DNA of 52,947 nucleotides from Acidimicrobiia bacterium (GTDB taxonomy: Bacteria; Actinomycetota; Acidimicrobiia; Acidimicrobiales; Aldehydirespiratoraceae), in contig JAGWAO010000010.1 in assembly GCA_021296315.1 (NCBI GenBank), positions 3,762 through 56,708 on the forward strand, in the 5' to 3' direction. A program made the translations under genes and the position numbers. The notes beneath the pieces were generated by a model, which saw nothing but the letters and a program-made list of their open reading frames with translations, was not told the origin of the DNA and did not search any database. The stretch's first letter is position 1. Each line of letters starts with the position of its first letter. Below, in pieces: positions 1 through 47,329 of the stretch.

Positions 1-88
1 GCCGTTGGGCGAAGTCACGAGCCGCCTCCCGCGCTGTGGGAGCCGTTGGGCGAAGTCACGAGCCGCCTCCCGCGCTGTGCGAGCCGTT
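1..88. repeat. 41-bp tandem duplication at a stop/start junction
   Basis: Positions 1-41 and 42-82 are the same 41-bp unit with one mismatch near the end, and the first six bases of a third unit follow at 83-88. On the minus strand each unit carries the last codons of the SNF2 gene, its TGA stop and an overlapping GTG. The period is not a multiple of three, so the duplication inserts a short closed frame between the SNF2 gene and whatever follows beyond the window. Confidence 0.9.
15..59 (-). other. relay mini-ORF (14 codons) after the SNF2 gene
   Basis: A GTG at 57-59 overlaps the SNF2 stop (GTGA). It opens a 14-codon frame, MTSPNGSHSAGGGS, whose TGA at 15-17 overlaps another GTG at 16-18. 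The second GTG starts with the same codons and would open the next gene, which lies outside the window. The peptide largely repeats the SNF2 C-terminus because it comes from the 41-bp duplication. Translation is not shown; the claim rests on the double GTGA overlap. Confidence 0.4.
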
Positions 89-3000
89 CTCGCCGTTGTC
101 GTCGACGAGCAGCAGGTCCTGATCGATGCCCAGCGCGGCCCGCAGCTGATCGCTGTTGAGGTCACCCACCGAGGACGACTTGGGCAGCACCATGTCGGCG
201 ATGCGGCGCTTGCCCGCCACGACCTCCTCGACCCTCTCGTCGACCGTTCCGGGGCATACCAGACGGTGGCACACCACCGTGTTGCGCTGGCCGATGCGCC
301 AGGCGCGGTCGCGGGCCTGATCCTCCACCGCCGGGTTCCACCAGCGGTCGTAGAGCACCACATGGTTGGCCGCGGTCAGGTTCAGTCCGGTTCCGCCCGC
401 CTTGAGCGACAGCACCAGGGCCCCGGCTCCCCGGCCCTTCTGGAACGACTGCACCAGGCGGTCGCGGGCGCCGCGGGCCAGCCCGCCGTGATAACAGCTG
501 ATGTCCAGCCCGGTCTGCTCGCTGAGATGGGCTGCCAGCCGCTCGCCCCAGGTTGCGAAGTGGGTGAAGATCAGCATCCGCTCCCCGGCCGCGAAGACCT
601 GGCCCATGATCTGCTCCAGCCGGGCCAGCTTGCCCGAGCGCCCGTCCAGCGGGCCGCCGTCGTCCTCGTAGTTGACCGGATGGTTGCAGATCTGCTTGAG
701 GGCGGTGATGGCGGCCAGGACCGCTCCCTTGCGCTCCGGAGCGGCCTCGACCCCCTCGACTTGGGTTCGAGCGACCAACTCGTCGAGCACCGCCTGGTAG
801 AGCCCGATCTGCTCGGCGGTCATCGTGCAGTGGTCGAGCTCGTCGATACGGTCGGGCAGCTCGGCGGCGATGGCCGGCTCGGCCTTGGTCCGGCGGAAGA
901 CGAGGATGCCGTTGAGCGCGGCCAGCGCGCCCTCTCCGGCTGCGGCCGCCTTGGGCATTGCCGCCGCTGGTGGAGTCGTGAGAGCCTGCGATCCGTTGGA
1001 GGACTCCGACCCGTTGGATCCCGCAGCGCCGTCGGGGCTCTCTTCGGGCTGCTTGGAAACCCTCGACATCTCCGCGATGAACCGGTTGCGGGCCCCGAGC
1101 AGGCCCGGGTTGCAGAAGTCCATGATGGCCCACAGGTCGCCCAAGCCGTTCTCGATGGGGGTGCCGGTCAGCGTGACCCGGCAGCGAGCATCGAGGCGGC
1201 GGAGTTGCTGGGCGGTCTCGCTGGCCGGGTTCTTGATGGCCTGCGCCTCGTCGAGGACCACCGTCGACCACTCGACCTTCTCGAGCACATCCAGGTCGCG
1301 CATGGCCGTGCCGTAGGTGGACACCACCAGATCGGCGCCCTTGACCATGGCCGGCACCCGTTCGGCGGGCGTGCGGCTGGGACCGTGATGGACGACGACG
1401 CGCAGACCCGGCACGAAGCGCCGCGCCTCTGACGCCCAGTTGCCCACCACCGCGGGCGGTGCAGCCACCAGCGAGGGGCCGTTGCCGCGCGTGAGGTAGA
1501 TGTGGGCCAGCATGGTCGGGGTCTTGCCCAGGCCCATGTCGAGGGCCAGGCAGCCGCCCAGGCCGGCCTGCTCCAGGAAGCCCAGCCAGACCAGGGCGTC
1601 GGCCTGGTAGGTCCGCAGTGTCCCGTTGAAGCCGTCCGGTTTGGTAGGGAGTTCCGCGGGTATGTGGCCAGCGCTGCTGAGCAGCTCGGCGGCCCAGCCC
1701 TCCCCCGCGATCATCGTGCCCCCGGCCAGGGGCGATCCCTCCAAGCCGAGGGCGTGGCGCAGCATGTCGGCGCCGGTCAACCGGGTCATGTCGGCCCGCT
1801 CGGACAGCGCGGCCGCGGCCTCGTTCAGGTCGGCCCGGTCCAACTCCACCCAACGTCCCCGGCTCTTCACCAGGGGTCGGGCCTGGGTGGCCAGGTCGCG
1901 GATCTCGGCTGCGGTGAGTTCGACGTCGTCGAAGGCGGCCGACCAGCGCACGTCTGCGAGCTGGCGGGCTCCCACGACGGTCTCCTGGGCCTCGACCGAT
2001 GTGAGGCGCAGGGACGGCTTGGGCCGCCGGCGCGACAGCGCCGGGACCCGCACGTCGTATCCGACGGCCTGCAGGACATGACCCGTCCCGGTCATCAGCT
2101 GCCAGGCCTCGTCGGCGTTGAGGATCACTTCTCCCCGCCGCCGCCCCCCGAGCCGCACCAGCTCCGGGAAGAGCCTCTCGAGGCGCGACATCTGGTGCTT
2201 CACTGCCTGGCGTCTGGTCCGCGACGCGATGACCAGGGCCCGCTCCACCGGTTGCAGCTCGCCCGCGCTCGACTCCGACAGCACCGACAGGTGCCACGCC
2301 CCGATGTCGTCGGGAGGATCGAGCTGCACGATCAGGCGCAGACGGCGGTCGTAGGACTCGGTTACCGGTCGGGCCCACTGATCCAGGCGGCGTGTCAGGT
2401 CGGCGGCATGCCGGCTCGGGACGTCGAAGGGAGTGCCGTCGAGCTTGGCCAGGGCCGTCTCGGCCACGTCGGCCTTGGTGCGGGGGACGGGCGGCGGCGC
2501 GGGCGCTTCGAGACGCTCGGCTGCGTCGGTGGCTATGGCGTCGACGATGTCGGCCAGCGCCGCCTGGGTGAAGGCATTGGCGTCCCGCTGGTTCTCGAAC
2601 GCAGCTGCAGCTCCGGGCAGCGATTCTGCCAGGGCGGCGATGACGTCGGATTCCACCAGCGCGGGGACCCAGCGCACTACGTAGGTGGCACTGTCGGAGC
2701 GCGCCGCGGCTGCGCCGTTGGAGCCGTCACCTACAGGTTCGTCCAGTCGGTAGCGACGGCGGACCTTCTTGAGCTGGGGAACCATACGTCCCTGCGCCGC
2801 GAGCCGCACCGCCAGCGCGGCCACCAGGCCCAGCCACGACACGCTGGCTCCGATTCCGTCCTGCTCGGCCGCCTCGCCAAGGGCGACGAGCCACCCTAGG
2901 CAACTCTCGATCGGTGCCGACACCGTTTCGGCCCGCGTCCCGCCACCGATCTTCACCGGTCGGTGCTGGCTCCAGTCGACGGTACCGGCCCCGGTGTCGC

Positions 3001-3481
3001 GCAACCGCCGGAGCACGTCTGGTGCGCTCTCGGCGGATCGGCCGGGCCCCGCGGCCCAGGCGATTATCCGCCCCGGCACCCACGACAGCTGCAGCTCGAG
3101 GTGGCCGGTGTCGCGAGGCTCGGGGGAGGCGCCGTTGTCCAACGGCGCCTCTGGCGGCCCTGCCAGGGTCGTCAGCACAGCGTCGATGGCGCGGTAATCC
3201 TCCTCCAGATCGGCGACTATCACGGCGCGCTGGTGTCCCCTCACTGAGGCTCTGACAGCGTCGATGGACTCAGCGACGTCGTCGAGGAGTCGGTAAAGGG
3301 CTCGAACCCACAGCCTGGTGTTGGCCTCCAGGAGCGCCAGGTCCGCGTCGCTGGCCAGGCCATCGACATGGCGGCGCACAGCTTCAGCGAAGTCCTTGGA
3401 CAACGCCAAGTGTGGGTCCAAGGTGGCGGTAGCAGTCGTCGTCACCATTGGGTTGGGAACCAGCCTATCAACATGGTTCAC
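56..3481 (-). CDS. SNF2/RapA-family DNA-dependent ATPase
   Basis: A 1141-residue SNF2-type ATPase, expected to remodel or translocate along DNA rather than to unwind it. The N-terminal ~600 residues match the variable SNF2_N-associated region of bacterial family members. Motif I (MGLGKT) lies near residue 650, the DEAQ Walker B box near 745, a low-complexity Gly/Ser/Asn/Ala linker around 800-850, and the C-terminal helicase half carries FTHFATWGERL (~970), GGTGLNLT (~1030) and RAWRIGQ (~1063). In other actinobacteria this gene is usually followed by a SWIM zinc-finger gene, and the GTGA overlap at the left edge suggests a coupled downstream gene. Start is uncertain: GTG at 3481 or ATG at 3448, neither with a clear ribosome binding site. 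Confidence 0.93.
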   Translation of the reverse strand: MNHVDRLVPNPMVTTTATATLDPHLALSKDFAEAVRRHVDGLASDADLALLEANTRLWVRALYRLLDDVAESIDAVRASVRGHQRAVIVADLEEDYRAIDAVLTTLAGPPEAPLDNGASPEPRDTGHLELQLSWVPGRIIAWAAGPGRSAESAPDVLRRLRDTGAGTVDWSQHRPVKIGGGTRAETVSAPIESCLGWLVALGEAAEQDGIGASVSWLGLVAALAVRLAAQGRMVPQLKKVRRRYRLDEPVGDGSNGAAAARSDSATYVVRWVPALVESDVIAALAESLPGAAAAFENQRDANAFTQAALADIVDAIATDAAERLEAPAPPPVPRTKADVAETALAKLDGTPFDVPSRHAADLTRRLDQWARPVTESYDRRLRLIVQLDPPDDIGAWHLSVLSESSAGELQPVERALVIASRTRRQAVKHQMSRLERLFPELVRLGGRRRGEVILNADEAWQLMTGTGHVLQAVGYDVRVPALSRRRPKPSLRLTSVEAQETVVGARQLADVRWSAAFDDVELTAAEIRDLATQARPLVKSRGRWVELDRADLNEAAAALSERADMTRLTGADMLRHALGLEGSPLAGGTMIAGEGWAAELLSSAGHIPAELPTKPDGFNGTLRTYQADALVWLGFLEQAGLGGCLALDMGLGKTPTMLAHIYLTRGNGPSLVAAPPAVVGNWASEARRFVPGLRVVVHHGPSRTPAERVPAMVKGADLVVSTYGTAMRDLDVLEKVEWSTVVLDEAQAIKNPASETAQQLRRLDARCRVTLTGTPIENGLGDLWAIMDFCNPGLLGARNRFIAEMSRVSKQPEESPDGAAGSNGSESSNGSQALTTPPAAAMPKAAAAGEGALAALNGILVFRRTKAEPAIAAELPDRIDELDHCTMTAEQIGLYQAVLDELVARTQVEGVEAAPERKGAVLAAITALKQICNHPVNYEDDGGPLDGRSGKLARLEQIMGQVFAAGERMLIFTHFATWGERLAAHLSEQTGLDISCYHGGLARGARDRLVQSFQKGRGAGALVLSLKAGGTGLNLTAANHVVLYDRWWNPAVEDQARDRAWRIGQRNTVVCHRLVCPGTVDERVEEVVAGKRRIADMVLPKSSSVGDLNSDQLRAALGIDQDLLLVDDNGENGSHSAGGGS

Positions 3482-3526
3482 GGATCAGGCTCGCGGCGAT
3501 CGGGCTCGCGGGGATCAGGCTCGCTT
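3482..3526. repeat. three imperfect 15-bp tandem repeats
   Basis: Three adjacent 15-bp units of the form (G/C)GATC(A/G)GGCTCGC plus two bases fill the spacer between the SNF2 start and the oxidoreductase stop, and the last unit supplies the final codons (Arg-Ala-stop) of the oxidoreductase. Confidence 0.7.
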
Positions 3527-6500
3527 CAATTCGGATCGCATCCTGTCGATCCCGGCCATCTTGAGGTGCTCGTAGCCCCGTACCATCTCCGGCAGCGCGG
3601 CTCGGGCGAGCACGGCTTCGTAGCAGCCGGGGTCCAACGTCGCGAGGTCGGATGTGATGGCGGCGCGGTACTTCGGAGGCAGGGACCGCTCCGCCCGCCG
3701 CACCGCGGTGTATCCGAACACGTCGAAGGGAGTGCCCCGCAAGCCGCGCATGGAGGCCAGCAGCCGTATGGCCGGCGTCCACGACACCGGCACCGAGATC
3801 TTCGACTTCATGCCGAGGGCCCGCAGGATCGGCGGGTGCAGCCTCCAGGCCAGCCTCCCGGAGGTGGTTGCGGCCCGCCGGCGGGCCTCGGCGGTGGCCT
3901 CGGGGTCGAGCATCAGCCTAGCCACCTCGTACTCGTCCTTGTAGGCCAGCAGCTTGAAGTAGCCCCGGGCCGCGGCTCGGGCCAGCCGTCCCGACCCGTC
4001 GCCTCGCTCGGCGTCGGCTGCGGCCACGGCCTCCACGAAGTCGAGATGTTTGCGGGCCAGCTTCGGCGACTGGTAGGCGCAGAGTTCCTTCGCCATCAGC
4101 TCCAGGTCGACGGGACCCCGGTAGCCGTCCTCGGAGCCGGCCCCGCCGGCTGTGGTCCCGTCGAAGCCGGCGGCACCGGCCAAGTGCCTCACCCTGGCCG
4201 CGAGCCGCTCGTCGAGTTCGGGCAGTCCGTCGCGGCGGGCCGACCCGGAGGCGGCCGCAGTCTCCACGGTCTCGGGCCGAGCCACCATGGCCCTGCCCCA
4301 CCGGAACGCCTCGATGTTGCTTCTCGTCGCCACGCCGTTGAGCTCGATGGCCTGCTCCACCGACCACGGCGACAGCGGCAGCGCGCCGGCCTGCACCGCC
4401 ATTCCCACCACGAACACGTTGGCCGTCACCGAGTTGCCCAGGAGGGCCTCGGTGAGGGCTTGGGCGTCGGCCCAGTGGCGGCAGTCGGCCCGGGTGACCG
4501 ACGCGATCACGGCCTCCAGCTCGGCAGGCTCCGGCATGGCCCGTTCCGGGTGCGCGACTATCGCTCCCGTAGGGGTCTGCGAGGTCGAGCCGACCACCAC
4601 GGTGCGCTCCGGGTCGGCCCTGCTCATGCCCGACGGCGACGCCGCCCCCAGCTGGTCGAAGGCCAGCAGCACGTCGGCCTGGCCCTCGCCGAGGCGGTTG
4701 CTGGCCGCCTCGTCGCCCCGGTACAGACGCAGATCGCTCACCACCGGTCCGGCCTTCTGGGAGAGCCCGATCTGGTCGAGGCCCCGCACCCCGTAACCGT
4801 CGAACATGGCCGCGGTCCCGATCACCTGGCTCACCGTGACCACGCCGGTGCCGCCAATGCCGACGATGCGGACCGACAGGTCGTCGGTGGGGACGGTAGG
4901 CGCAGGGTCGCCCAGATCGGTGGGCGCGGGCCCCGCCGGGCCGCTCGGGGCGCCCGCCGGGACCCGGTCCTGCCCGGTGATGCGGTGCAGCCACGACCGC
5001 AGGCGCCCGGGCCGGGTCACGGTCATGAACGACGGGCAGTCGCCCTCCAGGCACGAGAAGTCCAGGTTGCATGTCGTCTGGTCGATGCGGGTCTTTCGCC
5101 CGAAGGCGGTCTCCACCGGCTGAACCGACAGGCAGTTGCTGATCGAGGCGCAGTCCCCGCAGCCCTCGCAGATCCGCTCGTTGATGAACACCCGCTGGCG
5201 GGGCACGGCCACCGTGCCGCGCTTGCGCCCCCGCCGGGCCTCGGCTGCGCACTGCTGGTCGTGTATGAGGACGGTCACGCCGCCGATGCGGGCCAGCAGA
5301 TCGTGGGCCTCCATCAGCCGGCTGCGGGGCCAGACGTCCACGCCCTCGGGCAGGTCGGCGTCGCGGTAGCGGGCGATGTCGTCGGTAGTCACCAGCACCC
5401 GGGCCGCTCCCTGGGCCAGCAGAACCCGGCACACCTCGGCCACTCCCAGCATGCCTTGCGGGTCCTGGCCCCCGGTCATGGCCACCGTGCGGTTCCACAG
5501 CAGCTTGTAAGTGACATCGGCGCCGGCTGCGATCGCGCCTTGGATGGCGAGTTGGCCGCTGTGGAAGTAGGTGCCGTCACCGATGTTCTGGAAGATGTGC
5601 GGCGTCTCGACGAACGGGGCCATGCCGATCCACTGGGCCCCCTCCTGGCCCATGCAGGTGAGCCCCACGATGTCGCCGAAGCCGTCGGAGTCCATCAGCA
5701 GGGTCATCGTGTGGCAGCCGATCCCAGCGCCGACGGCGGCGCCATCGGGGACCTTGGTCGAGCGGTTGTGGGGGCATCCCGAACAGAAGTAGGGCGTGCG
5801 GGCCACGCCCTCCTTCAGCGGGATCAGCTCGCGATGCGGCTGTTCGGGCGCGAGGCGGTGGCCGATGCGATCGGACAGGCGGCGGCGTAGCGGTTGCAGC
5901 AGGTCGTCGGCGGTGAGGCCCCCGTGGCCGGGCAGCAGCATGGTGTCGTGCTCGTCGAACTTGCCCGTCACCAACGGTCGTCGGGGCTCGTTGTAGAGGG
6001 CGTCCTTCATGAGCGACTCGATGTTGGGCTGCTTCTCCTCCACCACGAAGATCTCCACGAGACCTCGGGCGAAGTGGCGGGCCCGCTGGGGGCTGAACGG
6101 GATGGGCATGTGCATGCACATGAGCCGGATGCCGGCCGCGGCGATCTCGGAGTCGTCGGCCAGTCCCAGCCGGCGCAGGGCCTCGCGCAGCTCCCGGTAG
6201 GTGATCCCCGAGGCCACGATCCCGATCCAGGCGTCGGATGGGTTGACGGTGGCGTGGTTGAGCTGGTTGAGGGCCGCGTACTCGATGGCCAGCGGGTGCC
6301 GGACCTCGTAGATCTCCCGCTCGGCGTCGACTGTCTCGGGGGTCAGCAGCCTGCCGTCGGGGGTGTGGACATAGGGCTCGCCGTCGATGGTGGGGATGAC
6401 GGGGTCAACCCGGCGGGGATCGAGGTACACCGTCCCCGAGCCGTCGGCCACATCGGCCACGATCTTGAGGCTGGTCCACAGACCGGTGGCCCTCGACAGG

Positions 6501-7066: not shown

Positions 7067-7197
7067 GGACGACCTCCAGGCGTCAGCGGTCGAAGCGGTG
7101 GCGCGGCAGCGACCCTAGTGCGCCGCAGGGCCCTGTGGAAGAGGCGATCCGCGAACCGCCGTTGGCGCGCTATGGGCAATTCGCTCCCGATGGTGGT

Positions 7198-7272: not shown

Positions 7273-7302
7273 GGCGCCACCCACCGGCCTGGCGTGTCGC
7301 GC

Positions 7303-8070: not shown

Positions 8071-8071
8071 G

Positions 8072-8815: not shown

Positions 8816-8820
8816 GGCGC

Positions 8821-9456
8821 TCAGACGGAAGCGGCCGGCGCGGAGGCCGTCACGAAGTTGGCCAGGATCTGCAGGCCCACCTCGGATGACTTCTCCGGGT
8901 GGAACTGAGCGGCCCACACGTTGTGGCGGGCCACCGCGGCCACCACCGGGCCGCCGTAGTCGCAGGTGGCCACCACGTCGGATGCGTCTGCCATCTCCGG
9001 GGCCAGCGAGTGGACGAAGTAGGCCCACACCGGGTTGTCCAGACCGTCGAGCATCGGGTGATCGCGGCTGGGCTGGAGCACGTTCCACTGCATCTGCGGG
9101 CGCTTCACCGGTCCCGGGATCCACCGCACCATGCGGTCGAACACGCCCAGCCCTGAGACGCCCGGGGCCTCGTCGGAGCCGGCGAAGAGCACCTGCATCC
9201 CCACGCAGATTCCCATGAACGGCCGACCCGACTGCACGGCGTCGACCGCGGCCGCGTCCAGCCCGGTGCGGCCCAGCGCGGCCATGCAGGGCGCGAAGGC
9301 TCCCACGCCCGGGAGCACCACTCCGTCGGCGGCCTTGATGAGACCGCGGTCCGCGGTGAGCCTCGCGTCGGCTCCGGCATGCTCGAAGCCCTTCTGGGCC
9401 GAGTGCAGGTTGCCGATGCCGTAGTCGAGGATGGCGACGAGCGGTCTGCCCGTCAC
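8821..9456 (-). CDS. hisH: imidazole glycerol phosphate synthase, glutaminase subunit
   Basis: A 211-residue class I glutamine amidotransferase that feeds ammonia to HisF. The nucleophile Cys is in GICVGMQVLF (about residue 83), and the His/Glu pair of the triad in AAQFHPEKSSEVG near the C-terminus. ILDYGIGNLHSAQKGFEHAG and LPGVGAF are also standard. The GTG at 9456 overlaps the TGA of a 12-codon relay mini-ORF rather than the hisB stop itself, and I see no ribosome binding site for it, so it probably depends on ribosomes arriving from upstream. Confidence 0.95.
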   Translation of the reverse strand: MTGRPLVAILDYGIGNLHSAQKGFEHAGADARLTADRGLIKAADGVVLPGVGAFAPCMAALGRTGLDAAAVDAVQSGRPFMGICVGMQVLFAGSDEAPGVSGLGVFDRMVRWIPGPVKRPQMQWNVLQPSRDHPMLDGLDNPVWAYFVHSLAPEMADASDVVATCDYGGPVVAAVARHNVWAAQFHPEKSSEVGLQILANFVTASAPAASV

Positions 9457-9512
9457 AGCGCGCCCTTGGTGGAGGGCTTGGGCGTGGTCACAGAGCGCCC
9501 TTGGTGGAGGGC
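9452..9512. repeat. 26-bp direct repeat spanning the hisB stop and hisH start
   Basis: Positions 9452-9477 and 9487-9512 are the same 26 bases with one mismatch, 35 bp apart. Each copy carries codons for Pro-Ser-Thr-Lys-Gly-Ala-Leu, a TGA and an overlapping GTG. One copy ends hisB, the other ends the mini-ORF and starts hisH, so a short tandem duplication pushed the two genes apart while keeping a stop/start overlap at each side. Confidence 0.9.
9453..9491 (-). other. relay mini-ORF (12 codons) between hisB and hisH
   Basis: The frame MTTPKPSTKGAL begins at a GTG (9489-9491) overlapping the hisB TGA, and its own TGA (9453-9455) overlaps the hisH GTG. It therefore exactly bridges the 31-bp gap between the two genes. 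Its last seven residues repeat the HisB C-terminus. Whether the peptide matters or only the act of translating it cannot be told from sequence. Confidence 0.5.
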
Positions 9513-10078
9513 AAGGCCGAGCCCTCCACCCGCACCGCGTCGCGGATGGCCCGGGCCACGCCCTTGAAGGACGCTTCCACGATGTGATGGGTGTTGCGGC
9601 CCCGCCGCATCACGATGTGCAGCGTGATCGCGGCGGCGGTGGCGAAGGCTCGCCAGAACTCCTCGGCCAGCTGCGGATCGAAGGGCGGGTCGCCGAGGAT
9701 CTTCTCGCCGGGGAAGTCCACGTCGTAGTGCAGGAACGGCCGTCCCGACAGGTCGAGCACGACCTCGACCGCGGCTTCGTCCAACGGCACCGTGATGCTG
9801 GCGAAGCGGCGCACGCCCGCCTTGTCGCCGAGGGCCTCGCGGAAAGCCTCGCCCAGCACGATGCCGGTGTCCTCGACGGTGTGATGGGCGTCCACTGCGA
9901 GGTCGCCCTGGGCCTGCACCGACAGCCCGAGCCCGCCGTGCCGGCCGAGTTGGTCGAGCATGTGGTCGAAGAACGGCAGGCCGGTCGAGACGTCGGTGAC
10001 GCCCGCGCCGTCGAGGTCGAGGCTCAACTCGATGCGGGTCTCCTTGGTGGAGCGGGAGCGGGTGGATGTGCGGCTCAT
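9488..10078 (-). CDS. hisB: imidazoleglycerol-phosphate dehydratase
   Basis: A 196-residue manganese-dependent dehydratase converting imidazole glycerol phosphate to imidazole acetol phosphate. The two metal-binding motifs DAHHTVED and NTHHIVEASFKG are present, along with LPFFDHMLDQLGRHGG. It is the monofunctional type, with no phosphatase domain. The ATG at 10078 has a strong AAGGAGA site (10086-10092) seven bases upstream, unlike most genes here, which are coupled by overlap. The last codons form one half of a 26-bp repeat shared with the mini-ORF in front of hisH. Confidence 0.96.
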   Translation of the reverse strand: MSRTSTRSRSTKETRIELSLDLDGAGVTDVSTGLPFFDHMLDQLGRHGGLGLSVQAQGDLAVDAHHTVEDTGIVLGEAFREALGDKAGVRRFASITVPLDEAAVEVVLDLSGRPFLHYDVDFPGEKILGDPPFDPQLAEEFWRAFATAAAITLHIVMRRGRNTHHIVEASFKGVARAIRDAVRVEGSALPSTKGAL

Positions 10079-15361: not shown

Positions 15362-15422
15362 AATATGTCATCAATATCAATATGTCATCCATGTCGCAAT
15401 ATCAATATGTCATCCATGTCGC
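15362..15422. repeat. 25-bp AT-rich tandem repeat
   Basis: Two exact 25-bp copies (15373-15397 and 15398-15422) of a unit beginning AATATCAATATGTCATCC, preceded by an 11-base partial copy (15362-15372). It lies in the convergent spacer and is much richer in A and T than its surroundings. Confidence 0.9.
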
Positions 15423-15432
15423 AGAATGAGCG

Positions 15433-30083: not shown

Positions 30084-30143
30084 GTGACTGGGCCGACACG
30101 CGACGATCGCGCCACTCTCGCCGTCGCAGAGGCACGCCCATGA
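30084..30143 (+). other. leaderless 19-codon leader ORF coupled to rrf2
   Basis: GTG at 30084 opens the frame MTGPTRDDRATLAVAEARP, whose TGA (30141-30143) overlaps the rrf2 ATG (30140-30142) as ATGA. The -10 box places the transcript start on this GTG, so ribosomes would load there and reach rrf2 by coupling. I see no ribosome binding site for rrf2 itself. Confidence 0.5.
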
Positions 30144-30589
30144 GGGTGTCGACACGCGGGGACTACGCATCCCGCGCCCTGCTGTCCCTGGCGCTGCACA
30201 GCGAGAACGCTCCGACCTCGGTGCGGGAGATAGCAGAGCGCACCGCGCTGCCCCAGCCGTACTTGGAGCAGATCCTGCTGGCCCTCAAGGGAGCCGGCCT
30301 GGTGCGCTCCAAGCGAGGCGTGGGCGGCGGGTACGTGCTGGCCCGCGACCCCGCCGACATCAAGCTGTCGGAGATAGTGCGGGCTGTGGACGGCCCGATC
30401 GCGGCGGGCGACTTCGGAGAGCCTCACACCGACGGCGCCTGCGATCACGAGGGGCAGTGCGTGCTGCTGGCGATCTGGTCGGCCTCGGGCTCCCACATGC
30501 GCCGGTTCCTGGACTCCTTCAGCCTGGCCCAGATCACCGACATGGCCCAGGGTGAGGCTCCCTGGCCGGTCGACGAGGATCCCTCCTAG
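30140..30589 (+). CDS. Rrf2-family transcriptional regulator
   Basis: A 149-residue regulator of the Rrf2 family (IscR/NsrR/CymR relatives). MRVSTRGDYASRALLSLAL, ALPQPYLEQILLALKGAGLVRSKRGVGGGYVLARDP (winged helix with wing) and LSEIVRAVDGPI are typical. The cluster region has only two cysteines, CDHEGQC, where the iron-sulfur members carry three, so cluster binding is uncertain. No iscS, suf or nitric-oxide gene is nearby. It is preceded by the leaderless mini-ORF. Its target cannot be assigned from context; the divergent phosphodiesterase is one candidate. Confidence 0.9.
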   Translation: MRVSTRGDYASRALLSLALHSENAPTSVREIAERTALPQPYLEQILLALKGAGLVRSKRGVGGGYVLARDPADIKLSEIVRAVDGPIAAGDFGEPHTDGACDHEGQCVLLAIWSASGSHMRRFLDSFSLAQITDMAQGEAPWPVDEDPS

Positions 30590-37729: not shown

Positions 37730-37763
37730 GGGCAGACAACCGCGATGTCGGCCCTCGGGGCGC

Positions 37764-37886
37764 GCTCATGCTCGCTTCGCTCACGGGCCGCTCGGGCCCG
37801 GGCCTCGCTACCCGCTCGGCCGGGGCCCGCTCATGCTCGCTTCGCTCACGGGCCGCTCGGGCCCGGGCCTCGCTACCCGCTCGGCC
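37764..37886 (-). repeat. dispersed intergenic repeat, copies 8 and 9 in exact tandem
   Basis: Two identical 58-bp units at 37764-37821 and 37829-37886, 65 bp apart, form the compact version of the family: the head (GCTCGGCC in this orientation) is joined to the core by only a few bases, and the tail reads GCTCATGCTCGCTTC. They occupy much of the 227-bp spacer between ftsQ and ftsZ. The exact identity points to a recent duplication. Confidence 0.92.
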
Positions 37887-37913
37887 TTCAGGGTCTGAAC
37901 GGATGCTCTAGGG

Positions 37914-38687
37914 TCAGCAGGGGCGGTGGCGGGTCACGGTGGCGATGTCGGGCATGGTCACGTCGATGATGGTGACGCACTGCAGATCAGCGGTCGCCAG
38001 CAGCGCTCGCAGAGCGCTGATCTTGTCGTCGACCAGGACCGGCTCACCCAGCACGACGGTGGCGCCGCCGACCAGCGTGAGGCCCATCTCGTCGCGGTCC
38101 GTCTCGAGGGTGACGGTGGAGACCCAGGCGCGGAGATCCTCGGGCATGGCCGTGACGACGGCAAGCGGCCCATCCGCGGCCGTGTGAATGTCACCGAGCT
38201 GTCCGGAGAACGGAACCGACACATGGGGCACCGCGGTTGACTCAGACCCCCAGCCGATTGCGTAGCCGTTGGCGTCGATCAGAGCCGTCCGGCCCTCCGA
38301 GGCCGGCACCACGGCAGCCGGCACGCGGGGCTCTACGGCAATGCGCACCGTGGCCGGCCAGTCCCTCCACACCTGCGCCGACCTGACCCAGGGCAACGAC
38401 GCTACGGACCGCTGCACCTCGTCGACGTCGAGGAACAGCATCGGCAGGCCGACCGACACGTTCGAGCTCTTGAGGATCTCGGCGCGGTTGGCGGGATCGG
38501 TGCCGGTGATCGTGATCCGGTCCACGTCCAGCAGAGGCGTGCGGCTGACGCCCCAAGCGGCGGCGGTCGCCAGAGCGATGCCCGACACCACCGCAATGAC
38601 CCGCAGGCGTCGGCGCCCCTGGGCCCTTATCACGGCGATGCGGCGTGCCTTCATGCGCGGGTCCACAGCCACGGTCCCGGCGCTCAC
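37914..38687 (-). CDS. ftsQ: cell division protein FtsQ (DivIB)
   Basis: A 257-residue bitopic division protein. A basic cytoplasmic tail of about 35 residues, one membrane helix (VIAVVSGIALATAAAWGV), an extracytoplasmic POTRA domain (RTPLLDVDRITITGTDPANR, about 48-120) and a beta domain with SLPWVRSAQVWRDWPATVRIAVEPRVPAAVV. FtsQ binds FtsB/L and holds the divisome core together. The GTG overlaps the murB stop. Length is in range. Confidence 0.92.
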   Translation of the reverse strand: MSAGTVAVDPRMKARRIAVIRAQGRRRLRVIAVVSGIALATAAAWGVSRTPLLDVDRITITGTDPANRAEILKSSNVSVGLPMLFLDVDEVQRSVASLPWVRSAQVWRDWPATVRIAVEPRVPAAVVPASEGRTALIDANGYAIGWGSESTAVPHVSVPFSGQLGDIHTAADGPLAVVTAMPEDLRAWVSTVTLETDRDEMGLTLVGGATVVLGEPVLVDDKISALRALLATADLQCVTIIDVTMPDIATVTRHRPC

Positions 38688-39643
38688 GGCAGCTCCCAGG
38701 GTTCGAATCCCACGAGGTGGGTCTCCGCCGACAGCTCGACGCCGTGGGCGTCCCTGACACGGCGGCGCACCTCGCGCATCACTGCGACGATGTCTGAGGC
38801 TTGCCCTCCCTCATCGGACTGGATGAAGTTGGCGTGCTTCGCAGAGACCTCGGCCGTGCCGATGCGCAGGCCCTTGGCGCCGGCGGACTCGATGAGCTCG
38901 CCGGCGGCCGCATGCTCGGGATTGGTGAACACTGACCCGGCGTTGCGCCCGCCCGGCTGGTTGGCCCGGCGCCAGTGAACTATCTCGGTCAGGCCGGATC
39001 GGGAGGTCTCACGATCCCCAAACCTCAACTTCAGCCTTACCGAGGCGACTACCTGATGGGCAGCGATGCTGCTGGTGCGGTATCCCAGTTGGAGATCGGC
39101 CGCGGCCCGCACGGTGGTGTCCCCACGGTGCAGATCAACGGTGACCGCGTCGATGAGCGGCTCGGACATGTCCGAGCCGTGACCGCCCGCGTTCATCCTC
39201 ACTGCTCCGCCCACGGTGCCGGGCACCCCTACGGCCCACTCGAAGCCGGTGAGCCCGGCCTCGACCGAGGCGCGGGCGACCACGGGAAGCAGGGCGCCCC
39301 CGGAGGCGCCGACCGTTGGGCCGTCGATGTCGAATCGCGTCAGCCGGGATTCCAGGGCGACGGCCAGGCCGTCGAAGCCGCGGTCGGCCACGAGCAGGTT
39401 GGACCCTCGCCCCACCACGAGCACCGGCACGGGCGGGCCGGCTCCGCCCGCGCCGGAGACGATGGCCGCCAGCATCTCGAGTTCCGCGAGGTCGGCCACG
39501 GCGACGAAGAGCCGGGCCGGCCCGCCGACCCGGTATGTGGTGTGCGAGGCCAGCCCGTAGCCCCTCCTCAGCGACGGCCCCAAAGGCGAGGAGGCCAGTC
39601 GGCGGTCGAGGTCGGCGAGCACATGCTGCACGGCCGCGGTCAC
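38684..39643 (-). CDS. murB: UDP-N-acetylenolpyruvoylglucosamine reductase
   Basis: A 319-residue FAD enzyme reducing enolpyruvyl-UDP-GlcNAc to UDP-MurNAc with NADPH. SHTTYRVGGPARLFV, VVGRGSNLLVADRGFDGLAV, GVPGTVGGAVRMNAGGHG, RRANQPGGRNAGSVFTNP (proton-donor Ser) and AKHANFIQSDEGGQASDIVAVM are present. The GTG overlaps the TGA of a 14-codon relay mini-ORF from murC. A run of five G lies nine bases upstream, a weak ribosome binding site. Confidence 0.95.
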   Translation of the reverse strand: MTAAVQHVLADLDRRLASSPLGPSLRRGYGLASHTTYRVGGPARLFVAVADLAELEMLAAIVSGAGGAGPPVPVLVVGRGSNLLVADRGFDGLAVALESRLTRFDIDGPTVGASGGALLPVVARASVEAGLTGFEWAVGVPGTVGGAVRMNAGGHGSDMSEPLIDAVTVDLHRGDTTVRAAADLQLGYRTSSIAAHQVVASVRLKLRFGDRETSRSGLTEIVHWRRANQPGGRNAGSVFTNPEHAAAGELIESAGAKGLRIGTAEVSAKHANFIQSDEGGQASDIVAVMREVRRRVRDAHGVELSAETHLVGFEPWELP

Positions 39644-39684
39644 GCTACGACCCCCGCATCTCGGGCCTTCGCCGGGATCCTCAC
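39640..39684 (-). other. relay mini-ORF (14 codons) between murC and murB
   Basis: GTG (39682-39684) overlaps the murC TGA and opens MRIPAKARDAGVVA; its TGA (39640-39642) overlaps the murB GTG. It therefore spans the 37-bp gap exactly with a GTGA overlap at both ends. Unlike the hisB-hisH case there is no visible duplication. Confidence 0.5.
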
Positions 39685-41075
39685 GAGTCGCTCGCGGTCC
39701 GCGCGGCCTCTAGGCGCTCGATGACGGCGTCGGGCGTGGCGGTCAGGTCGCCGGCTCCCAAGGTCAGACACAGATCGCCGCTGCGCAACCGGGCCTCCAG
39801 CCAGTCGGCAACCTCGTCGAGCCGCGGCAGCCAGGTCACCGACGACCATGGATGCGCGTCTAGGACTGCGTCAAGGACGATCTTCGAGGTGACACCGGGT
39901 AGGGGCGCCTCACCGGACGGGTAGATCCCGGTCAGCAAGAGGTGGTCCGCACCCACGAACGAGTGCGCGAACTCCGAGCCGATGGAGGCGACGCGGCTGT
40001 ATCGGTGGGGCTGGAACACGCACACCACCCGGTTCCAGTGCCCGGTTCTGGCCGCGGCGAGCGCGGCCTCGACCTCGCTGGGCAGGTGGGCATAGTCGTC
40101 CACGAAGGTGATGCCGGAGACGTCGCCGCGGAACTCGAAGCGCCGGGCCACACCCCCGAAACGGGCCAGCGCCCGGACCGAGTCGGCGAAGGACGCCCCG
40201 GCGGCGATAGCGGCCACGATCGCGGCGGTCGCGTTGAGGGCGTTGTGCAGGCCGGGGATCGGCAGCCTCACGACTCCCATCCTCGTGTCGCGCTTCCACA
40301 GTTCGAACTCGGAAGTGGGCATCCTCAGCGAGACGTCCACCATGCGGAAGTCGGCGTCCGGGTCAGTGCCGTAGGTGGTCGCGCCGAGGGCGGCACCCAG
40401 CCGGGCGGCGCCCCGGTCGTCGCCGCACACTATCCGGTGGCGAGACGAGGCCAGGAACTGTTCGAAGGCCTCGGCCAGAGCGGCCGGCGAGTCCTGGTAG
40501 TTCTCCAGGTGGTCGGATTCGACGCTGGTCACCACGGCCACTTCCGGGTCGAGGGACAGGAACGTGTGGTCGTTCTCGTCGGCCTCCACCACGAACCACT
40601 CGCCGGTGTCCCACATAGCACCGGTGCCGATCTCGTTGACGTCGCCTCCAATGATGAACGAGGGGTTGAGACCGGCCTCCACCAGCACCAGCGCCAGCAT
40701 GGAACTGGTCGTGGTCTTGCCGTGTGTGCCCGCCACCGCGATGGTCCTGCGGCTCGACACGATTGCGGGCAGGATCTCGCTGCGCCTCACTACCGGCACG
40801 CCGTACTCCCGTGCCGCCCGTACCTCGGGGTTGCTGTCGCGGACGGCCGATGAGACGGCGACGAGGGCAGCGTCGCCCAGGTTGGCCGGATCGTGGCCGA
40901 TGGCGACCGGCACTCCCTCGGCGCGAAGCCGGGCTACGACCGGACCGTCGCGCAGGTCGGATCCCGTCACCTCGTGGCCCATGGACCGGAGCACCGACGC
41001 AATGGCGCACATCCCCGCGCCGCCTGCGCCGATCACATGGATGGAGGTGGGCGTGGAGAGGTCGACGGTACTCAT
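39681..41075 (-). CDS. murC: UDP-N-acetylmuramate-L-alanine ligase
   Basis: A 464-residue Mur ligase adding L-Ala to UDP-MurNAc. N-terminal substrate loop HVIGAGGAGMCAIASVL, ATP loop VAGTHGKTTTSSM, VVEADENDHTFL, and the central HNALNATAAI and FEFRGDVSGITFVDDYAHLPSEV motifs typical of MurC, with QPHRYSRV. The ATG overlaps the murG stop (ATGA). Confidence 0.96.
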   Translation of the reverse strand: MSTVDLSTPTSIHVIGAGGAGMCAIASVLRSMGHEVTGSDLRDGPVVARLRAEGVPVAIGHDPANLGDAALVAVSSAVRDSNPEVRAAREYGVPVVRRSEILPAIVSSRRTIAVAGTHGKTTTSSMLALVLVEAGLNPSFIIGGDVNEIGTGAMWDTGEWFVVEADENDHTFLSLDPEVAVVTSVESDHLENYQDSPAALAEAFEQFLASSRHRIVCGDDRGAARLGAALGATTYGTDPDADFRMVDVSLRMPTSEFELWKRDTRMGVVRLPIPGLHNALNATAAIVAAIAAGASFADSVRALARFGGVARRFEFRGDVSGITFVDDYAHLPSEVEAALAAARTGHWNRVVCVFQPHRYSRVASIGSEFAHSFVGADHLLLTGIYPSGEAPLPGVTSKIVLDAVLDAHPWSSVTWLPRLDEVADWLEARLRSGDLCLTLGAGDLTATPDAVIERLEAARTASDS

Positions 41076-43437: not shown

Positions 43438-44792
43438 TTCGACACCCGCCGGGCGCGGTCCTTCACGGCGCGGATGAAGTCCTCGCCTCGTGCCGCATAG
43501 CCGGAGTAGCAGTCGAAGGAAGCACAGGCGGGCGACAAGAGCACGGCCGTACCCGGCTCGGCCGCGGCCGCGGCAAGATCCACGGCCTCGGCCATGTCGC
43601 CCGCCATCAGAACCGGCCTGTCGGCCGCAAAGACTTCGGCCACCTCGCCCGCAGCCTCGCCCAAGGCCACCACGCAGCTCACCCTGTCGATCGCGTCGCG
43701 CAGTCTCAGAAGGTCGAGGCCCTTGTTGCGACCGCCGGCGATCAGCACGGCATCCTCGAAGGAGCGCAGCGCTGCGACGGTGGCGTGGGGAGTCGTCGCC
43801 TTCGAGTCGTCGACGTACGTCACCCCGTCGATAGTGGCGACCCACTGGACTCGGTGGGCTCCGGGTCGCCAGTTGCGCAGCGCCTCGCCTGTCCCCTCGG
43901 TGGTGGCCCCCAGCACCGAGGCGGTGGCCGCGGCCGCTAGAGCGTTGGCGATGTCATGGGGCATTGCCCGGCGCAACTCCCCCACTTCGACCACCGGTCC
44001 ATCCGGCCCGGTCAGCACATTGTTGTCGCGCCGCCAGTCGGCTCGACCCTCATCAGAGAAGGTCCACGCAGCCCGGTCGTCTCGAAGGTGGCTCATGACT
44101 GTGGGATCCCGACGGTTGGCGACCGCGGTCGCTCCGGGAGGCAGCCGTTGCCACAGCCGGGCCTTGGCCGCCTCGTAGGAGGCGAGGTCGCGATGCACGT
44201 CGAGGTGGTCGGGTGCGAAGTTGAGCCAGCAGGCGGCGTCGGCCTCGAAGCTGCGGCTGTGGCTGAGACGGAAGGAAGAAGCCTCGACCACGAAGACCTC
44301 CACGTCGCTTCGCTCGATCGCGCTCACCAGGGGCAGGTCGTTGTTGCCGGCGGCCACCGCGGCCACACCCGAGGACTCGAGCGCGGCCACCACCATTTCG
44401 GTGACTGTGGTCTTGCCGCTGGTTCCGGTGACGGCCGCGATGGGCCGCGAGTCCCAGGCGCCGGCCAGATCGAACTCGCTGGCAGTAGGTACGCCGCGGG
44501 CGGTTGCTGCCTCCAGGACCGGGTGACGCTCGGGCAGCCCGGGCGTGGGGATGACCGCTCCGGCCGAGCGGACCAACTCGTCGAGTCGATCGGGACCGGG
44601 GGCGACCGCCAATTCGAGTCCGAGGGTCGCCGCGGCCGTCACCACAGCCGAGTCACCTCGGTCGTCGAACACGATGAGCTCGTGGTCCCTCGCCATCAGA
44701 GCCCGGGCGACAGCCTGGTTGGCTGCGCCGAATCCGGCCAGGAGCAGCGTCGGGGGCACCTCGAAGGGATCGTCGGCTCGAGACGGTCTCAT
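43434..44792 (-). CDS. murD: UDP-N-acetylmuramoylalanine-D-glutamate ligase
   Basis: A 452-residue Mur ligase adding D-Glu. The N-terminal Rossmann loop LLAGFGAANQAVARALM, ATP loop AVTGTSGKTTVTEMV, FAPDHLDVHRDLASYEAAK, the AHRVQWVATIDGVTYVDDSKATTPHAT motif and LSPACASFDCYSGYAARGEDF are typical of MurD. The ATG overlaps the mraY stop (ATGA). Confidence 0.95.
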   Translation of the reverse strand: MRPSRADDPFEVPPTLLLAGFGAANQAVARALMARDHELIVFDDRGDSAVVTAAATLGLELAVAPGPDRLDELVRSAGAVIPTPGLPERHPVLEAATARGVPTASEFDLAGAWDSRPIAAVTGTSGKTTVTEMVVAALESSGVAAVAAGNNDLPLVSAIERSDVEVFVVEASSFRLSHSRSFEADAACWLNFAPDHLDVHRDLASYEAAKARLWQRLPPGATAVANRRDPTVMSHLRDDRAAWTFSDEGRADWRRDNNVLTGPDGPVVEVGELRRAMPHDIANALAAAATASVLGATTEGTGEALRNWRPGAHRVQWVATIDGVTYVDDSKATTPHATVAALRSFEDAVLIAGGRNKGLDLLRLRDAIDRVSCVVALGEAAGEVAEVFAADRPVLMAGDMAEAVDLAAAAAEPGTAVLLSPACASFDCYSGYAARGEDFIRAVKDRARRVSK

Positions 44793-45841
44793 GGCGTGAG
44801 CCTCGAGATCGAGTCGACTATGCCGGTGTTGACCGCGTCGCCGTAGAACAGCCCGAGCCCGAGACCGGTACACAAGCCCGACAGGATCCACAAGCGCACG
44901 ATGACCGTGGTCTCGGGCCAGCCGCGCAGTTCGAAGTGATGGTGGAGAGGGGCCATGCGGAGAAGGCGCCGGCCGAAGCCCCTGAACGAGATGATCTGCA
45001 GTATCACCGAGAGGGTCTCGATGACGAACAGTCCGCCGATGATCACCAGCAGCAGTTGTGTGTTGGTGGCCAGCGCCAGGGCGGCCAGGCCGCCGCCCAG
45101 CGCCAGCGAGCCGGTGTCGCCCATGAAGATGCGGGCCGGCGCGGCGTTCCACCACAGGAACCCGATGATCGCGCCCACCATGGCTGCGCTCACCACGGCC
45201 AGATCGAGGGCGTGGGCCACCTGGTAGGAGTCGTAATGGTCGAACTGCCAGAAGCCGATGATCATGAACGCGCCGTAGCCGACTCCGCTGGCTCCCGCGG
45301 CCAGCCCGTCGAGCCCGTCCGTCAGGTTCACTGCATTGGTGGTCGCGAGGATCAGAAGGACGGCCCATATCGACCAGCCCAGCCTTCCCAGCTCTAGGCC
45401 GGGGCTGTCGAAGCGGGTGAAGGAGATGGTGGTGTGGGCCGACGTGAACTCGGTCATGGCCCATGCGAAGCCGATCCCGACGATGAGCAGCCCGACGATC
45501 TTGGTCTTCTTGTTGAGTCCCAGGTTGCGGGCGGCAACGACCTTGATCCAGTCGTCGAGCAGCCCGACGATGCTCCCGGCGATGATGGTGAGCATCACGA
45601 TGATGCCGGTGCGGGTGTAGATGCCGCCGAACACGTCGCTGATCACGTACCCGGCGGTGGCCGCGAACACGACGGCGATGCCGCCCATCGTCGGTGTGCC
45701 CGACTTGAGCCGATGCTCGGAGGGACCGTCGTCCCGGATGGGCTGTCCGATTCCGTAGTGCACCAGGACGCGAATCAGCAGCCAGCAGCCCGACAACGAC
45801 ACAAGCATCGCGATGCACCCCGCGATCAGTAGCCGGATCAT
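44789..45841 (-). CDS. mraY: phospho-N-acetylmuramoyl-pentapeptide transferase
   Basis: A 350-residue membrane enzyme making lipid I from UDP-MurNAc-pentapeptide and undecaprenyl phosphate. Ten hydrophobic segments and the family motifs SGTPTMGGIAVVF, LLDDWIKV (catalytic Asp), NAVNLTDGLDGLAAG, FMGDTGSLALGGGLA and MAPLHHHFELRGWPETTVIVR are intact. It follows murE with an ATGA overlap, where a murF gene would normally stand between them. Confidence 0.96.
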   Translation of the reverse strand: MIRLLIAGCIAMLVSLSGCWLLIRVLVHYGIGQPIRDDGPSEHRLKSGTPTMGGIAVVFAATAGYVISDVFGGIYTRTGIIVMLTIIAGSIVGLLDDWIKVVAARNLGLNKKTKIVGLLIVGIGFAWAMTEFTSAHTTISFTRFDSPGLELGRLGWSIWAVLLILATTNAVNLTDGLDGLAAGASGVGYGAFMIIGFWQFDHYDSYQVAHALDLAVVSAAMVGAIIGFLWWNAAPARIFMGDTGSLALGGGLAALALATNTQLLLVIIGGLFVIETLSVILQIISFRGFGRRLLRMAPLHHHFELRGWPETTVIVRLWILSGLCTGLGLGLFYGDAVNTGIVDSISRLTP

Positions 45842-47286
45842 CGGCTGGGCTCCCTCCTCCCGAGACGCTCGAGTTCCTCGCTCACCACGTCCCGGTCGTC
45901 GAAGGCCAGCATGCGGTCCCCGATGATCTGCCGGCTCTCGTGCCCCTTGCCGGCGATCACCACCATGTCGCCCCGCCGGGCGGTGGCCACTGCGTGGCGC
46001 AGGGCCCGGCGCCGGTCCGGCTCCTTCAGCTCGGGGGCGCGGCCCATGCCTTCGATGATGTCGTTGATGATCTTCTCCGGATCCTCAGAGCGCGGGTTGT
46101 CGCTCGTGACGATCACCCGGTCGGCCAGTCTCTCGGCGGTCGCGCCCATTTCGGGACGCTTGCCACGGTCCCTGTCACCGCCGGCGCCGAACACCACAGT
46201 GAGGCGATGCTCGGTCAGGCTTCTAGCAGCCTGCAACAACGCGGCGAGACCATCGGGGGTATGGGCGTAGTCCACTATTACCGCGAAGTCCTGTCCGGCG
46301 TGCACGGGCTCGAATCGGCCCGCGACCGGTGCGGCATCGGCCAGCCCCGCCGCGATCGCTTCCGGGCTCTGGCCCAGCAACAGTGCGATCTCGGCCGCGA
46401 GCACCGCGTTGGCCCGGTTGAAGGCCCCCGCCAACGGCAGAGTCACAACCTGGTCTCGCCAGCGGAACACGCTGGAGCGGGTGTCGGCACCTAGGAGCTC
46501 GACGGCGCGCTGGTCCACCGTCACCAGCGGCATCTCCGATGAGACGACCTCAACCAGACGTCGCCCCCACGGGCCGGTGACGTCCACTACCGCGCTCTCG
46601 GTGAGTCCCGGAGTGAACAGCCGGGCCTTGGCCTCGAAGTAGTCGTCCATCGAGCCGTGATAATCGAGGTGGTCGTGGCCGAGATTGGTGAACACGGCCA
46701 CACGGAACCGGCATCCGTCAACACGGTGCTGGGCCAGACCGTGCGACGAGACTTCGACGACCGCGGCACTAGCCCCGCGACCGGCCGCCTCGGAGAGGGT
46801 GCGCTGCAGATCGGTGGCCTCGGGAGTGGTCAGCGTGCCGGTCAGCGTGCCAATCTCAACCGGCTCACGACCAGCCGCCCGTAGCAGGCCTGCGGCCAGG
46901 CGGACCGTGGTCGTCTTGCCGTTGGTGCCGGTGATCCCGACCATATCGAGACGCTGCGCGGGATGGCCGTGCACCATGGCCGCGGCGGGTCCCAACGCCC
47001 GGCGGACCGACCCCACTACCAGGCTGGGCACGGCTGCGGGGACGGGCCGCTCCACCAGCAGACCGGCCGCGCCGGCCGCGACCGCGCCGGCCGCGAACCG
47101 GTGCCCGTCGCTGACCGCGCCCGGAATGCACGCGAAGAGGGCACCGGGCTCGACGCTCCGGCTGTCGTGCTCCACATCGCCGACGCGGGTGGCGGCGGCT
47201 TCGGAGATGTCCTGCGGCCCGCCGGCTTCGCCGGGCGGAAGCAGGTCGGCCTGCAGCGATCGGGCGAGCTCGCCGAGCGTGGTCAC
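45838..47286 (-). CDS. murE: UDP-MurNAc-tripeptide synthetase (meso-DAP type)
   Basis: A 482-residue Mur ligase adding the third residue of the stem peptide. GITGTNGKTTTVRLAAGLL (ATP), VEVSSHGLAQHRVDGC, FTNLGHDHLDYHG, the carbamylated-Lys region EAKARLF and the DNPR signature (TSDNPRSEDP) indicate meso-diaminopimelate as substrate. The GTG at 47286 (MTTLGELARS) is chosen as the family start and overlaps the TGA of the second relay mini-ORF; a GTG 12 codons upstream is also in frame but lies inside the mini-ORF region. Confidence 0.95.
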   Translation of the reverse strand: MTTLGELARSLQADLLPPGEAGGPQDISEAAATRVGDVEHDSRSVEPGALFACIPGAVSDGHRFAAGAVAAGAAGLLVERPVPAAVPSLVVGSVRRALGPAAAMVHGHPAQRLDMVGITGTNGKTTTVRLAAGLLRAAGREPVEIGTLTGTLTTPEATDLQRTLSEAAGRGASAAVVEVSSHGLAQHRVDGCRFRVAVFTNLGHDHLDYHGSMDDYFEAKARLFTPGLTESAVVDVTGPWGRRLVEVVSSEMPLVTVDQRAVELLGADTRSSVFRWRDQVVTLPLAGAFNRANAVLAAEIALLLGQSPEAIAAGLADAAPVAGRFEPVHAGQDFAVIVDYAHTPDGLAALLQAARSLTEHRLTVVFGAGGDRDRGKRPEMGATAERLADRVIVTSDNPRSEDPEKIINDIIEGMGRAPELKEPDRRRALRHAVATARRGDMVVIAGKGHESRQIIGDRMLAFDDRDVVSEELERLGRREPSR

Positions 47287-47309
47287 GTGTGTTCGCCCTG
47301 GCTCGTCAT
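47283..47309 (-). other. second relay mini-ORF (8 codons) between ftsI and murE
   Basis: ATG (47307-47309) overlaps the TGA of the first mini-ORF and reads MTSQGEHT; its TGA (47283-47285) overlaps the murE GTG. Confidence 0.5.
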
Positions 47310-47329
47310 GTCTCCGCCCCACTGCTCAT
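47306..47329 (-). other. first relay mini-ORF (7 codons) between ftsI and murE
   Basis: ATG (47327-47329) overlaps the ftsI TGA and reads MSSGAET; its TGA (47306-47308) overlaps the ATG of the second mini-ORF. Together they hand translation from ftsI to murE across 39 bp with three overlaps in series. The bases around the first and last overlap (GAACACATGAGC and GAACACACGTGACC) look like diverged copies of one another. Confidence 0.5.

Follow-up and report, generated by a model that had tools for sequence, protein, structure and literature searches.

Genes that have been pushed apart in two genera of uncultured Acidimicrobiales often appear, from their sequences, to remain joined by a tiny reading frame, at a frequency above chance. 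The pattern came to light in a 52,947-nucleotide (nt) stretch of an Acidimicrobiia draft genome (the window; G000:C3:3762-56708, from an assembly of 2.66 Mb in 83 contigs), in which short open reading frames (ORFs) start on the stop codon of one gene and stop on the start codon of the next; we call them relay ORFs. The element used at both ends is DTGA (D = A, G or T), a 4-nt stop/start overlap. The best explanation of these bridging frames is probably that a path through DTGA steps is kept after a gap opens. This explanation is carried by the sequence pattern itself, by its excess over controls in the genome of the window (the own genome) and in a genome of a sister genus of the same family (G018), by a length bias among duplications, and by the linked states at many junctions of 15 further genomes of the same genus.

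Most of the genes concerned lie on the minus strand, in the histidine genes of the window (hisD, hisC, hisB, hisH, hisA and hisF, by profile matches) and in its division and cell wall (dcw) cluster (mraZ, rsmH, ftsL, ftsI, murE, mraY, murD, ftsW, murG, murC, murB, ftsQ, ftsZ and pgeF, with mraZ, ftsL, ftsQ and pgeF named from matches below curated cut-offs). Between hisB (9488..10078; NCBIfam HisB) and hisH (8821..9456; NCBIfam TIGR01855), a relay of 13 codons including its stop runs from GTG at 9491 to a TGA ending at 9453 (9453..9491), and between murC (39681..41075; TIGR01082) and murB (38684..39643; Pfam MurB_C) lies another of 15 codons including its stop (39640..39684), both with GTGA at either end. 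The junction from the ftsI-type transpeptidase gene (47326..49071; Pfam Transpeptidase, NCBIfam models below cut-off) to murE (45838..47286; TIGR01085 above cut-off) is a two-step relay, the first frame having 8 codons (47306..47329) and the second 9 (47283..47309), stops included, with hand-over sites ATGA, ATGA and GTGA in that order. A further relay with GTGA at both ends (15..59) follows the SNF2-family helicase gene (56..3379; Pfam SNF2-rel_dom; start from our own gene caller) and is one unit of a 41-bp tandem array running off the window. All of these features are on the minus strand, and the DTGA overlap is present at both ends of the mini-ORFs at each of these four junctions. Together with a leader mini-ORF of rrf2 on the plus strand, they were found where the initial annotation had placed them. 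Its count of about 13 short same-strand gaps, three of them relays, was reproduced by our gene calls (13 gaps of 8-80 nt, three relays); with a retrained gene model the murG start moves, which gives one more gap, of 44 nt and in frame.

Across larger samples, we followed restarts on overlapping starts through same-strand gaps of 8-100 nt that have a start on the upstream stop, gaps with undetermined bases (N) or shorter than 8 nt being excluded. Each gap was classed as direct (immediately in frame), relay (reaching the frame through at least one extra stop), run-over (wrong-frame reading across the downstream start) or dead end (ending ahead of the downstream start). The own sample (801,706 bases) provided 65 scored gaps and the G018 sample (800,000 bases) 102; gaps whose upstream stop carries no start (113 of 178 and 125 of 227, respectively) lie outside this test. 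In the own genome, 19 relay, 24 direct, 11 run-over and 11 dead-end gaps were observed, compared with 8.6 (standard deviation 2.4), 14.6, 25.0 and 11.3 when gap interiors were shuffled and their length was varied by at most 1 base (400 runs). The corresponding observations in G018 were 45, 28, 13 and 16, compared with 17.8 (standard deviation 3.6), 26.6, 40.3 and 13.5. In neither genome did any of the 400 shuffled runs match the observed relay count or drop to the observed run-over count; relays rose 2.2-fold over the shuffle in the own genome and 2.5-fold in G018, and dead ends remained near simulation. The initial annotation had reckoned a chance rate of about one gap in twenty, to which shuffling comes close (8.6 of 178 own gaps, including those with no start on the stop, or about 1 in 21; 19 of 178 observed), and had made its idea depend on a genome-wide count unequal to that of permuted gaps, which is what these samples gave. 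Frame-shift controls yielded 9.6 expected relays in the own genome and 15.2 in G018, and under a stricter null, the average over three frames, the G018 excess remained strong (45 versus 25.1, p = 1.4e-5). In G018 the downstream start also took the form NTGA in 54 of 98 cases after a DTGA upstream stop versus 39 of 129 otherwise (p = 0.0002), the own-genome fractions being 25 of 59 and 36 of 119 (p = 0.13).

Many operon genes of this lineage are joined by the 4-nt DTGA overlap, and we propose that small tandem duplications of the overlap, or nearby insertions, push them apart. The variants that persist would mostly be those in which the ribosome, having terminated at the upstream DTGA, begins again on the overlapping DTG and reads an open mini-ORF to another DTGA, repeating this until it enters the frame of the downstream gene. 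The start would advance by 2 mod 3 per step. Because the restart lies one base ahead of the stop, the TGA of a copy lying L bases away falls in the restart frame only if L = 2 mod 3; as each step is 2 mod 3, a path of k steps needs a unit length of 2k mod 3, which a duplicated unit with k steps should then show.

Two relays of the window, like many in G018, are tandem duplications of the junction itself, DTGA included, an origin absent from the initial annotation. The unit measures 41 bp at the SNF2 edge (Tandem Repeats Finder and our duplication scan) and 35 bp at hisB-hisH (absent from the Tandem Repeats Finder list), and both lengths are 2 mod 3. At hisB-hisH, the first copy of the hisB 3' end with its GTGA, the relay start, spans 9488..9512 (minus strand; unit 35, score 23), and the second copy, whose GTGA is the relay stop and hisH start, spans 9453..9477 (minus strand; duplication scan), the limits of both being set by eye. 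The mini-peptide of a duplicated junction consists of the start of the downstream gene (B) followed by the end of the upstream gene (A), and the hisB-hisH peptide ends like the HisB C-terminus. On the adjoining contig stretch (L099), the SNF2 array has four complete 41-bp units, with incomplete units flanking an N run, and ends on the GTGA of the next gene. The N run comprises 163 bases, a length that may only be estimated, since the visible parts leave no room there for an exact multiple of the unit. By eye, the two halves of the ftsI-murE gap are partly repeated. Local repeats scoring at least 14 were present in 18 of 45 relay gaps in G018, versus 14 of 125 gaps whose stop carries no start, and in only 2 of 19 relay gaps of the own sample. 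A local-repeat origin for all relays, which would fit G018, was rejected on this own-sample count; other routes must exist.

Through a scan of both samples for tandem duplications with a score of at least 13 whose first copy covers the upstream stop, we obtained 26 events (4 own, 22 G018) at DTGA stops with a same-strand neighbour. The genes were linked in 25 of these (23 relay, 2 direct; the remaining one is a dead end), where frame shifts lead one to expect 14.5 (p = 6e-6). Unit length L was 2 mod 3 in 17 events, 1 in 5 and 0 in 4, compared with 2, 4 and 10 events, respectively, among 16 duplications at other stops (p = 0.001 for L = 2 mod 3). Of the five DTGA units with L = 1 mod 3, three need two steps from one copy to the next, in line with the 2k rule, and the other two arrive at gene B through later steps. 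Taken by itself, the own sample has just one DTGA unit of four at 2 mod 3. The test was confined to events inside contigs, with units no longer than the gap, and homologous loci of the genus were not pooled into it; it thus left out D-type events at contig edges (window, 41; L118, 35; L127, 21; L238, 45), the N-containing L125, L102 on a second-species contig, an L241 case with a -4 gap, and the long units of L131 (89), L163 (67) and L176 (38).

Bridges of this kind might instead be brought in by mobile elements resembling the mycobacterial interspersed repetitive units (MIRUs), with a ready-made relay ORF inserting at DTGA sites. The accessible part of PMC12548453 describes MIRUs as doing so in mycobacteria, with a short ORF at the gene start, -4 coupling and little harm on insertion. 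They are the nearest precedent, sharing with our cases a relay ORF inside the unit and a 4-nt overlap to the next gene, a likeness that we see at the level of sequence. MIRUs, however, are one family and apparently mobile (PMC12548453, accessible part), whereas the clear cases here, at hisB-hisH and SNF2, each duplicate the junction at which they sit and are unrelated between junctions. A dispersed repeat resembling repetitive extragenic palindromic (REP) elements does occur in the genus: with the core GTGAGCG.AGCGAACA, it lies in the window at 37756-37886 and in L108, L122, L129, L139 and others, amounting, over 805 kb of the own genome, to 56 core copies plus 94 BLAST hits from a single query, which had no BLAST hit in the 800-kb G018 sample. 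In favour of a mobile source, this repeat sits inside two relays of relatives, at hisB-hisH in G012 and at murC-murB in G007, and in the own sample a DTGA follows the core within 14 nt in 18 of the 56 copies. The copies of the own sample lie mostly elsewhere and are not concentrated in relay gaps (3 of 56), so that a dispersed family at many junctions, the MIRU trait, was not seen in this repeat: in same-strand gaps, nine copies follow a DTGA stop (3 relay, 4 dead end, 2 run-over) and 25 follow other stops, 18 are between opposed genes, 3 are in genes and 1 is at an edge. At a loose cut-off, matches elsewhere in the own genome were found for 3 of 15 relay gaps versus 3 of 11 dead-end and 3 of 9 run-over gaps. 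In G018, a loose cut-off gave relay gaps a MIRU-like appearance (17 of 42 with a match elsewhere, versus 13 of 100, 7 of 24, 1 of 16 and 2 of 12 in the other classes); under stricter matching, hits persisted for five relay gaps, were short and GC-rich and lay inside genes in 8 of 10 instances, and a dispersed-element origin was dropped. We judge mobile elements a highly improbable source of the relays. Unit lengths of 77, 53 and 101 bp in MIRUs would each leave 2 mod 3, in keeping with the arithmetic of the relays.

The same junctions were compared in relatives through an ortholog table of the window region (at most 15 genomes per row, 39 rows with data), which held 384 cases: 114 overlap, 61 direct, 41 relay, 13 run-over, 22 dead end and 133 with no start on the stop. 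Where the upstream stop is a DTGA (238 cases), 205 are frame-linked (108 overlap, 57 direct and 40 relay, beside 13 run-over and 20 dead end), and the 16 rows chosen by rule (at least five genomes, most with DTGA) were linked in 193 of 217 cases. Eleven junctions, picked after the table was seen, were linked in 160 of 160 cases, with 78 at -4, 50 direct, 27 relay and 5 other overlaps or near-overlaps; they comprise nine dcw junctions (ftsL-ftsI to murB-ftsQ) plus hisB-hisH and hisD-hisC, with 12-15 genomes each. G004 is missing from the hisB-hisH and dcw rows, and its hisB-hisH junction is in frame by eye. Relay gaps at hisB-hisH measure 31 nt in six genomes and 10, 64 and 67 nt in others, beside direct overlaps elsewhere; those at ftsI-murE measure 36, 39, 58, 76 and 157 nt, with one to four steps. 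The murC-murB gap is 37 nt here and 79 nt in G007, where the relay is longer, the difference of 42 being 0 mod 3, and further relay gaps occur at murG-murC (73, 94 nt), murD-ftsW (67, 64), ftsW-murG (85) and hisD-hisC (46, 109). The SNF2 junction, in 14 relatives, is a -4 overlap in 11, a one-step relay over 70 nt in G003 and direct in G011, and in G004 has no called neighbour. These relay states are not all independent. The expectation of the initial annotation that relatives would keep the mini-ORFs thus stood as regards the link, which is present at many junctions; as regards the relay itself it did not, since most relatives have a direct overlap in its place and the link is gone at some junctions.

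Two observations concern the assembly of these genomes. The hisB-hisH junction of G006 (L043) is identical to those of G014 (L042) and G007 (L044), and the FtsI of G006 is less like that of the window (77% against 86%), which points to recombination or mixed binning. The draft genome also holds a second dcw cluster (L102, G000:C15) beside that at 34-51 kb of the window, its FtsI 78% identical to the window's, which suggests that contigs of a second species are present in the bin.

A related arrangement precedes the rrf2-type regulator gene (30140..30589, plus strand; Pfam Rrf2). Its leader mini-ORF (30084..30143, plus strand; 20 codons including the stop) starts with GTG at 30084 and ends with TGA at 30141-30143, overlapping the rrf2 ATG at 30140. 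By eye, the motif TCTAGGATGCCACC abuts the rrf2 ATG in G009, where rrf2 itself starts; in this genome and in G003 a GTG stands at that spot, and different inserts between the TAGGAT motif and the gene each form a mini-ORF with its stop in the ATGA at rrf2. The start is shifted by 56 nt here and by 26 nt in G003, both 2 mod 3, and the two other relatives shown are without the motif. We take the TAGGAT motif to resemble a -10 box.

Several observations weigh against the view that a bridging path is kept. Under the three-frame null the own-genome excess is weak (19 versus 12.7, p = 0.04). This also speaks for the view that relays arise by chance where DNA abounds in GTG and TGA, as does a rate of about 1 gap in 20, at which three relays in one window are not very rare; we nevertheless hold chance to be very unlikely, as the G018 excess persists under all three nulls and both the duplication length bias and the many linked states in relatives remain. 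Direct gaps of the own genome likewise lie above simulation (24 versus 14.6), an excess that probably reflects mis-called starts. The caller, a periodic 4-mer model with no term for overlap or ribosome binding site (RBS), recovered 8 of 11 annotated dcw starts exactly in E. coli, and we read direct cases as largely start mis-calls, so that an artefact of start calling or of assembly indels has to be weighed for the relays too. Neither type of error, we argue, should favour the relay frame over the run-over frame, and the 35-bp hisB-hisH form recurs in six genomes (shared binning or recombination being possible for three); an artefactual origin therefore seems scarcely credible. Duplications before convergent genes (n = 17) lean the same way in length as those at DTGA stops (L mod 3 = 2 in 8, 1 in 4 and 0 in 5), and some of these stops may precede an uncalled small gene. 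Five junctions of the ortholog table depart from the linked state: hisC-hisB (n = 13; 7 relay, 1 overlap, 2 dead end, 3 no start), ftsZ-pgeF (n = 13; 4 relay, 8 dead end, 1 no start), the 35107-34346 junction (n = 10; 8 run-over, 1 dead end, 1 no start), rsmH-ftsL (n = 13; 4 run-over, 4 direct, 3 no start, 1 dead end, 1 overlap) and ftsQ-ftsZ (n = 13; 8 no start, 4 dead end, 1 run-over). Outside the two genera, the only ones for which the effect is shown, no clear relay excess was seen in Rhodococcus plasmid pRHL1 (550 kb; 3 of 18 versus 2.0 expected), in E. coli K-12 (250 kb; 0 of 13 versus 1.5) or in 23 dcw loci of more distant relatives, mostly Acidimicrobiia/Acidimicrobiales (2 of 43 versus 5.8; L216-L218 and L222 left out), samples that are all small and whose many direct cases we read as mostly mis-called starts.

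The observation that dead-end gaps are not depleted in either genome bears on a different form of selection, in which restart happens anyway, a wrong-frame ribosome blocks downstream initiation, and relays are one harmless outcome with the downstream gene initiating alone. Run-over is the strongly depleted class, its depletion being as strong a signal as the relay excess, and dead ends occur in 20 of the 238 cases in relatives; part of the signal may therefore be avoidance of run-over. In G018 the ribosome binding sites point in the same direction, Shine-Dalgarno-like matches being about as frequent at relay starts (0.47) as at -4 overlaps (0.46); in the own genome the fractions were 0.21 and 0.41, with 0.16-0.18 at random positions, fractions alone being compared as the own-genome random-position mean is distorted by outliers. 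With Shine-Dalgarno-like energy at relay starts close to that of other starts, relays are no general replacement of binding sites, and the initial annotation's idea that ribosomes pass on with no new binding site found no support as worded; the absence of a Shine-Dalgarno sequence was accordingly rejected as a mark of relays, whose starts are not poor in it. Removal of run-over alone, however, should raise relays and dead ends together, and only relays rise, which speaks for the bridge; nor is there a dead end among the 160 cases from ftsL to ftsQ, hisB-hisH and hisD-hisC, junctions picked afterwards. Run-over avoidance as the whole explanation is, in our estimation, unlikely. The proposal that selection keeps a bridge is supported in part, by links beyond chance in two genera, by the duplications and by the relatives, and is weakened by the undiminished dead ends.

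The -4 overlap and reinitiation are already standard. Termination-reinitiation at -4 overlaps, as presented in the available portions of PMC6728339 and PMC10666635, uses the same DTGA overlap that we find at each relay step; known -4 coupling joins two genes directly, whereas here one or more non-gene frames, up to several in series, lie between them. Short upstream ORFs that deliver a ribosome downstream (PMC12548453; IraD, PMC5574718; both as far as accessible) likewise end on the next start, and the rrf2 leader agrees with them by position only; such ORFs lie ahead of a gene, whereas relays lie within operons between two genes. A small intergenic ORF of the Salmonella Mg2+ transporter operon also promotes downstream translation (PMC8092293), although it is titled translation-aborting and, in the part of that source available, no stop-start chain is apparent, unlike in relays. 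In the literature searched (titles and abstract openings, with many subscription papers outside its scope), we found no description of relay mini-ORFs inside operons arising from duplication of the overlap. What is added here is that local duplications and insertions generate bridges, that the duplications are length-biased, and that, in this genus, some stretches of essential operons retain a continuous path despite many changes.

Other features of the window include the lack of murF between murE and mraY in the dcw cluster (44789-47286), the gene not having been sought elsewhere; a GT-rich 30-bp unit in three copies with 91% matches between mraZ and rsmH (50821-50910); and an AT-rich perfect 25-bp tandem repeat of 2.1 copies between two called genes (15372-15423).

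In summary, the preferred reading is that a path through DTGA steps is kept once a gap has opened, with the ribosome presumably reinitiating at each relay step, coupling being the trait likely selected and the mini-peptides having, we infer, no function of their own. According to the accessible text of PMC10666635, reporter work on E. coli and Haloferax gene pairs showed that coupling is nearly lost at gaps of about 20 nt and that reinitiation needs no more of the upstream gene than its last 15 nt; a relay of at least five codons could therefore restore the hand-over. More tentatively, an unbroken ribosome path would impose on intergenic DNA a second frame rule (length 2k mod 3), and arrays such as the 41-bp one at SNF2 would be relay chains whose copy number could tune ribosome delivery. 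Whether short overlaps are kept for coupling or partly through drift is debated (PMC10666635, as far as accessible), and relays offer a natural experiment on this point: the gap is open, and the lineage tends to retain a frame for which there would be a need only under coupling or under avoidance of run-over. Any genome allows the mod-3 rule to be counted, the different states of a single junction among related species make up a ready-made reporter series, and frames as short as these are easily missed in gene annotation.

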